Shown: in pieces, positions 19,987 through 22,921 of the stretch
How positions within the stretch are numbered: the stretch's first letter is position 1
Layout: each line of letters starts with the position of its first letter
Program-made: the position numbers and the translations under genes
NCBI GenBank assembly: GCA_017467845.1
Contig: JAFUKH010000091.1
Coordinates: 1-36,686 of the forward strand
From: Lachnospiraceae bacterium
GTDB lineage: Bacteria; Bacillota; Clostridia; Lachnospirales; Lachnospiraceae
Length of the DNA stretch: 36,686 nucleotides
Direction of reading: 5' to 3'
Notes under the pieces: generated by a model
The model's database searches: none
What the model saw: only the letters and a program-made list of their open reading frames with translations
Told to the model about the DNA's origin: nothing

Positions 19987-20044
19987 AAAAAAACGCCACT
20001 TTCGCGCATTACTTCGTAACGCGCTCACTGCGGCTTTCGCCGCA
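19987..20044 (-). terminator. second hairpin cluster behind the oadA-type gene
   Basis: On the minus strand there is first a perfect 6-bp hairpin TGCGGC-GAAA-GCCGCA with a GNRA loop (20029-20044). A 9-bp hairpin follows, with arms 20016-20024 and 20004-20012 (one G-U pair) and a GAA loop. GTGGCG and seven Ts come next (19987-19993). The T-run sits about ten bases after the hairpin, so termination is plausible rather than certain. It works in tandem with the terminator at 20056-20091. Confidence 0.55.
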
Positions 20045-20055
20045 TATTCAGAAAT

Positions 20056-20091
20056 AAAAAAACAGGAAAGAACATAAATGCTCTTTCCTGT
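20056..20091 (-). terminator. intrinsic terminator of the decarboxylase operon
   Basis: On the minus strand a perfect 10-bp stem ACAGGAAAGA/TCTTTCCTGT (arms 20082-20091 and 20062-20071) with a 10-base loop is followed by six Ts (20056-20061). It lies 30 bases after the oadA-type stop. An imperfect 20-base inverted repeat flanks it (20039-20058 with 20095-20114, 16 identical positions), so the whole stretch can fold as one long hairpin. Confidence 0.9.
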
Positions 20092-20121
20092 ATCTTTATT
20101 TCCGAATGCGTGGCTCAATGC

Positions 20122-21549
20122 TTACACTGGGTAAGCTCCGTTCTTGCCATCAGCAACTGTCTGGTCAACAGAAGTCTGCTGTGCCTGACGATACTTGAAG
20201 AAGTCCGTAGCAACCTGTGGGAATAAAGCGTATGATAATACGTCTTCATCCTGCTGCTTCCACTCTGCCATCTCAGCTTCTAACTTATCTAACTCGTTAG
20301 GAATAGTATCTGCGAAACGACAGGTAATTCTCTCTTCACCAGGAATAACCTTATCGATAACTTCCTGGCTCATAGGCTTAACGGTCTGACCATATTCACC
20401 ACGAAGAACAGCCTTGGTTTCCTTAGTAGCCATCTTGTATCTCTCACCCATAAGTACGTTAAATACTGCCTGAGTACCAACGATCTGTGAAGAAGGAGTT
20501 ACAAGAGGTGGCTCACCTAAATCCTTACGAACTGCAGGGATTTCCTTTAATACATCATAGTACTTATCTTCTGCGTTCTGCTCCTTTAACTGGCTAACCA
20601 TGTTAGAAAGCATACCACCCGGTACCTGATATAATAAGGTCTTAATATCAACTCCCATAACCTTAGGATTTAAGAGGCCGTTAGCAAGACACTCATCTCT
20701 GTAAGGTCTGAAGTAATCAGCGATTTCTGCAAGTAAGTTCTGGTCAAATCCGGTATCATACTCGGTACCCTTGAAGGTCTCAACCATAACTTCGGTAGCA
20801 GGCTGTGAAGTACCAAGTGCAAACGGGCTCATAGCGGTATCGATTACATCAACACCAGCCTCAACTGCCTTAAGGTAGGTCATACTAGCTACACCTGAGG
20901 TATAGTGAGTATGTAACTGAATAGGAAGCTTGGTTGCGCTCTTCATAGCCGAAATCATCTCAGTTGCCTTATAAGGAACTAAAAGACCTGCCATATCCTT
21001 GATACAAATAGAGTCTGCACCCATCTCCTCAATCTTCTTAGCCATGTCTACCCAGTATTCTAAAGTATAAGCATCACCTAAAGTGTAGGATAATGCAATC
21101 TGAGCATGACCTCTGCCTTCCTGAGCCTTGAACTTGTTGGTAGCATCTACAGCTGCCTGTAAGTTACGAAGGTCATTTAAGCAGTCGAAAATACGGATGA
21201 TATCAATACCGTTAGAGATAGACTTCTGTACGAAGTACTCTACTACGTCATCTGCGTAAGGTCTGTATCCTAAGATATTCTGACCACGGAACAACATCTG
21301 TAACTGTGTATTCTTAAAACCATCACGAATCTTTCTAAGTCTGTCCCATGGATCTTCCTTTAAGAAACGAAGAGAAGCATCAAAGGTAGCACCGCCCCAG
21401 CACTCTACAGAATGATATCCAACCTTATCCATTTTCTCAAGGATAGGAAGCATAAAATCGGTAGGCATTCTGGTAGCAATCAGAGACTGATGAGCATCAC
21501 GTAAGATGGTTTCCGTAATTTTAATCGGTTTTTTAACTGTTTCTGACAT
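20122..21549 (-). CDS. oadA: oxaloacetate decarboxylase / pyruvate carboxylase-type carboxyltransferase subunit
   Basis: The 475-residue protein is the carboxyltransferase of the OadA/PycB type, moving CO2 between oxaloacetate/pyruvate and biotin. The HMGL-like TIM barrel (about 10-290) has ILRDAHQSLIATRM, VECWGGATFDASLRFL, FRGQNILGYRPYADDVV, the Lys-bearing ICIKDMAGLL (the carboxylated lysine region) and the metal site LHTHYTSGVAS. The conserved carboxylase domain (about 300-460) has GGMLSNMVSQLKEQ and TPSSQIVGTQAVFNVL. It stops without the biotinyl domain that ends many OadA proteins; the separate biotin carrier at 22965 must supply it. GGAGG is nine bases before the ATG. A 162-base structured element separates it from oadB. 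Confidence 0.95.
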   Translation of the reverse strand: MSETVKKPIKITETILRDAHQSLIATRMPTDFMLPILEKMDKVGYHSVECWGGATFDASLRFLKEDPWDRLRKIRDGFKNTQLQMLFRGQNILGYRPYADDVVEYFVQKSISNGIDIIRIFDCLNDLRNLQAAVDATNKFKAQEGRGHAQIALSYTLGDAYTLEYWVDMAKKIEEMGADSICIKDMAGLLVPYKATEMISAMKSATKLPIQLHTHYTSGVASMTYLKAVEAGVDVIDTAMSPFALGTSQPATEVMVETFKGTEYDTGFDQNLLAEIADYFRPYRDECLANGLLNPKVMGVDIKTLLYQVPGGMLSNMVSQLKEQNAEDKYYDVLKEIPAVRKDLGEPPLVTPSSQIVGTQAVFNVLMGERYKMATKETKAVLRGEYGQTVKPMSQEVIDKVIPGEERITCRFADTIPNELDKLEAEMAEWKQQDEDVLSYALFPQVATDFFKYRQAQQTSVDQTVADGKNGAYPV

Positions 21550-21571: not shown

Positions 21572-21601
21572 AATATAAACGATCATCCTAATTGTTTTCA
21601 C
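21572..21601 (-). promoter_or_regulatory. weak candidate promoter before the oadA-type gene
   Basis: On the minus strand GTGAAA (21596-21601) and TATATT (21572-21577) are separated by 18 bases. The -35 overlaps the terminal base of the structured element. This could give the gene expression independent of the rest of the operon. Confidence 0.3.
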
Positions 21602-21762
21602 TTATTCAGAGTCTATTCGCAAAACCGTGCCTCGGGCACTTTCCTTTTGCCGGGGAACCTTTGGTTCCCTTGGCGTACTCGCCATATGAATTTTCATAAA
21701 GATACTCGCTTATGCAAGCATACCTCGCATCTTTATTGAAAATTCGCACGACTCTGAATAAG
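21601..21762. repeat. 162-base multi-hairpin element (structured RNA or folded mobile repeat)
   Basis: A perfect 13-bp inverted repeat (21601-21613 with 21750-21762) encloses four more helices. P5 is GCAAAA/TTTTGC (21619-21624, 21645-21650) capped by GTGCC-TCG-GGCAC (21627-21639). P4 is GGGAACC-TTT-GGTTCCC (21653-21669). P3 is GGCG-TACT-CGCC (21672-21683). P2 pairs 21688-21703 with 21729-21745, 16 bp and one bulge. Only 2-5 bases separate neighbouring helices, so the sequence folds into a compact five-way junction on either strand. It starts seven bases after the oadB stop codon. No terminator T-run, ORF or target duplication is seen. It may be a structured RNA inside the operon transcript or a MITE/REP-like insertion. 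Confidence 0.85.
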
Positions 21763-21769
21763 AAGCCAT

Positions 21770-22921
21770 TTAGAATACTCCAAATATCGCCATGAATGTA
21801 CCAGCTACTACAGCGGTACCGATAACACCTGCTACGTTAGGTCCCATAGCATGCATTAATAAGAAGTTTGTAGGGTCTGTCTCTGCACCAACCTTCTGGG
21901 ATACACGTGCAGCCATAGGTACCGCAGAAACACCTGCAGAACCGATAAGAGGATTAACCTTACCCTTTGTTGCCCAGCACATAGCCTTACCAAAGAGAAC
22001 ACCTGCTGCGGTACCGAATGCGAATGCAATAAGACCAAGCACTACAATCTTAAGTGTATCTGCATTCAGGAATGCTTCTGCGCTGGTGGTAGCACCAACA
22101 GAAGTACCTAAAAGGATAACTACGATGTACATCATTGCATTAGAAGCAGTATCAGTTAACTGTCTTACAACGCCTGACTCTTTGAAAAGGTTACCAAGCA
22201 TTAACATACCTACCAACGGAGCTGTTGTAGGAAGGATTAAGCTTACAACAATAGTAACAACGATAGGGAAAAGAATCTTCTCAAGCTTGGATACAGGACG
22301 AAGCTGACCCATCTTGATTGATCTTTCCTTCTCAGTAGTAAGTAACTTCATAATAGGCGGCTGGATAATAGGAACCAATGACATATAGGAATATGCTGCA
22401 ACTGCGATAGGTCCAAGGAGTGCCGTCTGACTAAGCTTACCTGCAAGGAAGATGGAGGTAGGACCGTCTGCACCACCGATGATGGAGATTGCAGCTGCTG
22501 CCTTATCATTAAATCCAAGCCAGATAGCTCCAAAGTACGCTGCAAAGATACCAAACTGTGCAGCAGCACCAAGTAAGAAGCTCTTAGGGTTTGCAATGAG
22601 GGGACCGAAGTCAGTCATAGCACCTACACCCATGAAAATCAGGGAAGGTAAAATTGCCCACTCATCTAAGAGATAGAAATAATACAGTAAACCGCCTACA
22701 CCATTCGCTGAATCTTCTGCATGAAGCATGATGTCAGGGTAGATGTTTACAAGCAGCATACCAAATGCGATTGGGAGTAAAAGCAGAGGCTCAAACTCCT
22801 TAGCAATCGCTAAATATAGGAAAATACACGCAACAACAATCATAATGTAATTTCCCCAGGTCAGGTTAAAGAACGCTGTCTGGTGAATCAGATTGCTGAA
22901 CGTATCGAAAATGTATTCCAT
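21770..22921 (-). CDS. oadB: Na+-translocating decarboxylase beta subunit
   Basis: The 383-residue polytopic membrane protein is the OadB/MmdB/GcdB beta subunit, which decarboxylates carboxybiotin and exports Na+. About nine or more hydrophobic helices are visible. The functional core [15 protein letters not shown] contains the Asp known to be essential for Na+ and proton transfer in the family, and the second conserved repeat region is [14 protein letters not shown]...[19 protein letters not shown]. The length is somewhat below OadB of enterobacteria but normal for Firmicutes. It lies 43 bases after the biotin carrier gene. Confidence 0.96.

Follow-up and report, generated by a model that had tools for sequence, protein, structure and literature searches.

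A probable decayed IS66-type MITE with a Clostridiales-1-like RNA fold in the oadB-oadA spacer of a Lachnospiraceae bacterium

The spacer between oadB and the downstream oadA gene in the DNA analyzed here, a 36,686-nucleotide stretch from a Lachnospiraceae bacterium (contig JAFUKH010000091.1, hereafter the window), contains a folded element of 162 bases. The explanation that we consider best, and probably correct, is that it is a decayed IS66-type MITE with a Clostridiales-1-like RNA module, which is old, probably immobile, and now serves as a cis-acting intercistronic mRNA structure, the role in the mRNA being one that we infer. According to this explanation, an IS66-type transposase would have copied the element into the spacer, where we infer it to be co-transcribed between oadB and oadA. 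Once transcribed, it would form a compact structure without a terminator right past the oadB stop codon. This fold may determine how stable the oadB and oadA segments are or how they are processed, and may separate the translation of the two genes without stopping transcription.

A sequence-only reading of the window had proposed a five-helix fold at 21601-21762, and this architecture, with a 13-bp closing stem and four internal stem-loops, is borne out (Table 1). The minimum free energy of the segment is -63.8 kcal/mol on the plus strand and -70.8 kcal/mol on the minus strand, with z-scores of -8.7 and -9.4, respectively; none of 200 dinucleotide-preserving shuffles equaled its stability on either strand, in keeping with the claim that such pairing does not arise by chance. 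The distance of seven bases from the oadB stop codon and the location inside the oadB/oadA interval were also correctly described. The strand sense, however, has to be reversed, because both genes lie on the minus strand and the relevant RNA is therefore that of the minus strand. Read in this direction, the gCUUGc loop tops the longest hairpin of the element, the sequence past the closing stem is TGAAAACAATTAGG, consistent with the reported absence of a T-run, and the oadA start follows 51 bases beyond the element, with a GGAGG site between. An intrinsic terminator was rejected, as the closing stem, read from the sequence, has no T-run on its 3' side, and a riboswitch was rejected, as no match in the window attains the gathering score of an Rfam family. 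At the tips of the window copy 8 of 10 bases differ from the family sequence GTAAC/GTTAC, all but one of the 25 inner family pairs persist, and neither a direct repeat nor an 8-bp duplication was found when looked for at its ends. Its P4 apical loop is CGA, that of most copies GNA. At the place of its inserted hairpin a similar one is seen in copy L054 (= L003), and certain other copies have different inserted hairpins.

Table 1. Window coordinates of the folded element, its helices and the flanking genes
Feature	Coordinates	Strand	Basis
oadB, sodium ion-translocating decarboxylase beta subunit, upstream gene	21770..22921	-	TIGR01109, 488 bits, over cut-off
Whole element (R1 model span)	21599..21764	-	R1 127.2 bits, E 5.4e-26; the window copy is one of the ten sequences from which R1 was built
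P1 5' arm = left terminal inverted repeat, still paired, with altered outer bases	21750..21762	-	fold
P2, long variable hairpin, gCUUGc cap, loop 21715-21718	21688..21745	-	fold
P3, short hairpin TGGCG-AGTA-CGCCA	21671..21684	-	fold + ten-sequence alignment
Extra inserted hairpin GGGAACC-AAA-GGTTCCC	21653..21669	-	copy comparison
P4, GCAAAA-GGAAA-GTGCC-CGA-GGCAC-GG-TTTTGC, conserved internal loop	21619..21650	-	fold + alignment
P1 3' arm = right terminal inverted repeat	21601..21613	-	fold
oadA, oxaloacetate decarboxylase alpha subunit, downstream gene	20122..21549	-	NF008985, 735 bits, over cut-off

The element is one of a large dispersed family. Searches by BLASTN and by covariance model had been proposed along with the fold. 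The former located 5 places in the own genome and, counting that genome, gave matches in 5 of 61; the latter, with a model (R1) built from ten copies including that of the window, gave matches at E<=0.001 in 37 of the 61 genomes examined in the genus, again counting the own (among the matches listed, with the best 50 or fewer candidates per genome scored). In the own genome (G000) R1 was far more sensitive than BLASTN, with at least 50 matches, and at least 46 were found in a sister species (G006; one contig, 4.08 Mb). Across the order, where the best 10 or fewer candidates per genome were scored, R1 matches at E<=1e-6 occur in 26 of 295 genomes, own included, belonging to 15 of 129 genera. 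Kineothrix sp. MSJ-39, found by pattern, has 10 R1 matches; the pattern scan of genome contigs was strict and gave one locus only. From 105 R1 matches we listed 100 copies, leaving out four opposite-strand duplicates and the partial match L110:2097. Of these, 82 (length 130-180, two excluded by name) were used for the alignment and for the covariation, loop and tip-age counts, and 98 for the gene-context count; the loci L030, L033, L036, L038-L040 and L042 were left out.

This family is, or was, mobile. Its intact termini read GTAACTATTCAGAG...CTCTGAATAGTTAC, and the outer tips GTAAC..GTTAC are intact (at most one of ten bases changed) in 30 of the 100 copies. Among these 30 the adjacent 8-mers agree at 7-8 positions in 13, perfectly in 6, and the 8-bp target-site duplication of an IS66-type MITE is thus present at the family level; such agreement (>=7/8) is seen in 2 of the 70 remaining copies and at a rate of 0.0011 when flanks of different copies are paired. 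A candidate partner was located at two places in G006, where matches to the end GTAACTATTCAGA and to the IS66 transposase domain PF03050 coincided. These are two identical 1,817-bp IS66-family elements with ends GTAACTATTCAGC and TCTGAATAGTTAC, near-identical to those of the family, and perfect 8-bp duplications, ATTTTTAT and GTTTTTTT; each encodes one 485-aa IS66-family transposase (NF033517, 263 bits against a cut-off of 180; PF03050 over cut-off). Hence, at the family level, the ends are those of a transposase-coding IS66 element: GTAACTATTCAG.. occurs both in the copies and in the two G006 elements. The terminal sequence is common to the two groups, with 1 base of the first 13 differing at one end, and both make 8-bp target duplications; in contrast to the insertion sequence, the folded element has no transposase gene, and short-word BLASTN of the G006 insertion sequence against the 100 copies gave 3 hits, all at its ends, and found no similarity to its body. 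G006 has four PF03050 matches, of which two bear the family ends, a third has no convincing ends around it, and the fourth is a fragment below cut-off; no PF03050 match or IS66 transposase was found in G000 (own assembly, 86% complete) or G035. A second subfamily with a related core comprises L028, L032, L035, L037 and L041; four of the five have the ends GTAACAGTTCAG..CTGAACTGTTAC, with perfect 8-bp duplications at L032 and L035 and 7/8 agreement at L028 and L037, and the ends of L041 were not matched. The window copy itself is probably old, decayed and immobile, and, judged from these sequences, would have been brought in by an IS66-type transposase.

The same locus in relatives gives a view of the insertion site. 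The oadB-oadA spacer measures 220 nt in the window, or 58 nt without the 162-nt element. It measures 28-61 nt in 10 of the 28 relatives with a readable spacer (56 nt in G009), a twenty-ninth, G075, stopping at a contig edge; and R1 finds the element in 1 of 29 oadB-oadA loci, that of G008, where the match is weak (30.4 bits). The spacer lengths and the near-absence of the element are therefore consistent with an insertion within the lineage of the window.

The oadB-oadA spacers of several other relatives contain different folded inserts. In those of L167 (G022), L176 (G008) and L150 (G071) the insert is framed by GCTGTGCA..TGCACAGC and forms long hairpins whose sequences differ while the pairing is kept; in G022 it is present as two near-identical tandem copies. 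The 30.4-bit R1 match in G008 is the only one among these three, and BLASTN in 6 genomes found the GCTGTGCA-type insert only in G022, with a 30-base piece in G008, so that it was not seen as a high-copy repeat there. A second hairpin array is found in the window just past the oadA gene (19993-20116, minus strand), with a GCCAC/GTGGC closing stem and three hairpins inside. A run of seven Ts follows it, which makes it terminator-like, and in general layout it resembles the element. It gives a weak R1 match (30 bits, E 7.7e-4) and no RF01699 match at E<=10.

The fold of the family is conserved. In a MAFFT alignment of the 82 copies, the 28 pairs that were predicted on both strands show standard pairing in 92.2% of cells, and a search for compensatory changes, likewise proposed at the outset, found double changes in 27 of these 28 tested pairs. 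The double-change cells number 529, against a mean of 145 and a maximum of 176 in 500 shuffles in which the relatedness of the copies remains, and pairing falls to 34-40% when the partners are slid by 1-2 columns. The initial alignment, of ten sequences, had for 28 of 47 predicted pairs at least one sequence changed on both sides with the pair kept; within the P4 apical stem, as many as 6 of the 10 sequences were changed on both sides of a given pair. When the copies are grouped by the state of their tips, 25 inner pairs are kept at 93.5% in tip-intact (n=26), 93.1% in intermediate (n=21) and 91.7% in tip-degraded copies (n=35), with per-side change rates of 0.30-0.33 across the three classes; the fold therefore outlasts the transposon ends. 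The sequence-only reading had held that homology to a known IS fragment with conservation of terminal repeats alone would speak against a structured RNA; instead, the inner fold covaries beyond the controls. It had also posed a structured RNA and a folded MITE/REP-like repeat as alternatives. Given a mobile family with such covariation, each of the two is supported, and it is their mutual exclusion that falls.

Several features point to one strand. In the sense strand of the 82 copies GU pairs outnumber AC combinations by 66 to 29 (p 0.0002 taking the copies as independent). Of these copies, 62 of 82 have a GNA triloop on P4 and none has the reverse-complement type, TNC; the P2 region has GCTTGC in 58 of 82 and its reverse complement, GCAAGC, in 9. 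Both gCUUGc and GNA loops are stabilizing. Gene contexts, assigned by a simple longest-ORF rule, lean the same way: among 98 copies, tandem contexts are sense in 40 cases and antisense in 18 (p 0.005, the copies not being independent). A co-directional downstream gene is found in 67 of 94 cases, and as this count is inflated by divergent contexts we set it aside as the main test in favor of the clean figure of 40:18. Of the 40 sense-tandem copies, 25 have their end 10-60 bases ahead of the next called start. A stop codon adjoins the 5' end of the copy in 22 of 51 cases and the 3' end in 12 of 27, with no dependence on orientation in this MITE family. From the GU excess, the loop types and the tandem sense bias, the sequences support the sense-strand RNA as the active form.

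Comparison with Rfam, a further check proposed for the element, had a mixed outcome: at gathering scores no family was found in the window, and in E-value mode Clostridiales-1 RNA (RF01699) was. The match to the window copy (21607-21756, minus strand) scores 23.7 bits (E 0.0024) against a gathering score of 48, and runs end to end over model positions 1-166 of 166 in one orientation. The element resembles the model consensus in the long GCUUGC-loop hairpin, the AUGAGC...GCGAAU helix and the closing stem. It differs in that RF01699 copies of G006 such as L187 have one more hairpin, placed between the GCGAAU helix (P4) and the closing stem, which the window copy lacks; the window copy in turn has P3 and the inserted hairpin, and its family has GTAAC ends and 8-bp duplications. 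Among ten copies with the same ends, from 7 loci chosen partly for known RF01699 matches over the cut-off, 3 pass it in Rfam's own mode (L088, 58.8; L092:2001, 55.9; L097:11888, 54.5). E-value scans of 19 loci gave an RF01699 match in 11, all under the cut-off, and none at E<=1 in the other 8. In the reverse direction, at E<=1, R1 picks up 10 out of 20 G006 loci with RF01699; as it finds L187 and misses L197 at an equal RF01699 score, speed filters matter here. Of 12 chosen genomes, 10 have RF01699 matches at E<=1, over cut-off in 6, and so does 1 of 14 control genomes, where they are not over cut-off (both among the matches listed); G006 alone has at least 88. On this sequence evidence the element family is a divergent branch of one superfamily with RF01699, and by the curated score the window copy is no formal member of the latter.

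The RF01699 copies, too, behave as repeats. Ten complete copies in G006 have the ends TGATGYCRGGGTCAAAAG, flanked by an exact 5-bp repeat in 6, a 6-base repeat in 2 and none in 2 (the flanks being AT-rich, with no chance level assigned). Such ends and repeats look like those of a transposition system other than the IS66-type one. No autonomous partner of the 5-bp-repeat type was recognized in the ORF lists of 8 G006 places, and no ends were recognized on other RF01699 copies. Over 60 fetched loci the tandem contexts are sense in 33 and antisense in 10 cases (p 0.0006). At the 5' end, 31 of 39 chances show a stop codon no more than 16 nt away; at the 3' end 4 of 15 do. With 50 of the 60 loci aligned, double-change cells number 234, against at most 87 in shuffles, while GU over AC (26 vs 16) is not significant (p 0.16). 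This set and the element-family set share genomes and are not fully independent. More tentatively, and with somewhat less than even confidence, we propose that Clostridiales-1 RNA is the body of a set of MITEs, and no ordinary sRNA gene: one conserved module would have been joined to ends from two or more transposition systems that are unrelated to each other (one IS66-type, with 8-bp duplications, the other with 5-bp ones) and kept preferentially in sense between operon genes, as a mobile cis-acting mRNA structure for the host operon. Elsewhere in G006, RF01699 matches at L213, L225, L226 and L256 overlap or stand head to tail, some of them being short. The stretch with two family copies at L097 also has a TwoAYGGAY RNA, another motif of the 2010 list (RF01731, 104.5 bits; L097:7091-7253, minus strand).

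What the element does at its present site is the point on which explanations diverge. By analogy with the REP, ERIC, Correia/NEMIS and bcr repeats, which are therefore the basis for favoring it, a part in intercistronic stability or processing together with insulation appears most likely. The main rival to any role in the mRNA is that of a harmless passenger. In its pure form, a selfish MITE whose self-folding, terminator-free copies are kept because they are least harmful in operons would do nothing for the decarboxylase genes. The many copies, the target duplications and an autonomous-type partner are all as this would have it, as is the short spacer at the site in 10 of 28 relatives, and the sense bias could reflect purging of harmful antisense inserts. 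Yet pairing of 91.7% at the inner positions of tip-degraded copies, and a related core with other ends in the RF01699 copies, are more than harmlessness alone predicts, and we regard a purely selfish element as rather unlikely, while taking it seriously. Several observations also weigh against the explanation that we prefer: 1) the window copy lacks intact tips and a duplication, has CGA instead of GNA in P4 and reaches just 23.7 bits with RF01699; 2) the GU excess is not significant in the RF01699 set, and a short spacer suffices in 10 of 28 relatives; 3) stop-codon adjacency in the family is independent of orientation, 8 of 19 loci give no RF01699 match, and G000 and G035 have no IS66 transposase.

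Two further readings seem improbable to us. Pairing might be kept up in the DNA itself, through template switching or through hairpin correction of one arm by the other, with no selection on RNA; long hairpins with freely drifting arms, such as P2, are what quasi-palindrome correction would yield, and covariation by itself cannot separate this from RNA selection. The asymmetries between strands do so to a degree: GU exceeds AC by 66 to 29 (26 to 16, and not significant, in RF01699 copies), the loops are of one-strand types (GCTTGC in 58/82, GNA in 62/82), and the copies are biased in orientation, all of which speaks against upkeep in the DNA and leaves it little credence. Just as low do we rate a free-standing sRNA or ribozyme that happens to be mobile and, cut out or separately transcribed, acts in trans. 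Rfam gives RF01699 the type 'Gene; sRNA', and the table of Weinberg et al. 2010 lists Clostridiales-1 as probably an RNA, with 'n' for cis-regulatory (PMC2864571); dozens of diverged copies in G000 and in G006, the sense bias in tandem genes, and the 25 of 40 sense-tandem copies ending 10-60 bases ahead of the next called start are at odds with such a gene.

MITEs with folded transcripts are already known, as is Clostridiales-1 RNA. For the bcr1-bcr18 repeats of the Bacillus cereus group, PMC3446304 describes locations in UTRs and operon spacers; these are repeats of which bcr1-3 are MITE-like and bcr10 and bcr18 have a conserved secondary structure, as does our element; 51% and 40% of bcr repeats are in transcripts in two B. 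cereus strains, and bcr3 correlates with the mRNA decay rate. These repeats belong to other organisms, and we liken them by description and not by sequence. ERIC and Correia/NEMIS, as summarized in PMC2229807 and PMC10969869, are MITEs whose transcripts fold and either change mRNA stability or undergo RNase cleavage: in Yersinia, the effect of ERIC on the stability of the upstream transcript varies with its orientation, and RNase III acts on Correia/NEMIS transcripts. Here too the likeness is one of description, and most of them are, according to a 2007 review, long stem-loops closed end to end, whereas the element is built of four to five helices that show compensatory changes. For REP palindromes, a role as mRNA stabilizers has been proposed (PMC3733652).

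As far as the literature searched shows, the connection of a MITE with Clostridiales-1 RNA, the related module with at least two kinds of ends, and the sense bias appear to be new. Mobility of Clostridiales-1 RNA was not found in that literature, most subscription journals lying outside it, and nothing useful was found there on IS66 end features or on MITEs and RNase III. An orphan Rfam family thereby gains a physical explanation, its copies being repeated in the genomes examined and part of them having transposon ends, and RF01699 matches should not be taken as single sRNA genes. The family would also offer a case of a transposon-borne RNA fold kept past the loss of mobility, with dozens of insertions in one genome. 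The conversion of a mobile element to an mRNA element thus becomes testable in Lachnospirales, with the family ends and duplications as a handle on insertion age.

Some individual loci deserve mention in their own right. A truncated copy without its 5' half (L113:1972-2053) lies about 35 bases ahead of an ORF starting MAIKIALAGNPNCGKTTLFN, which by eye is FeoB-like. At distances of about 50 to 700 bases from element copies or R1 matches we encountered a 6S RNA (L178:1799-1982), a small SRP RNA (L043:2813-2912) and a TPP riboswitch (L180:1671-1776).
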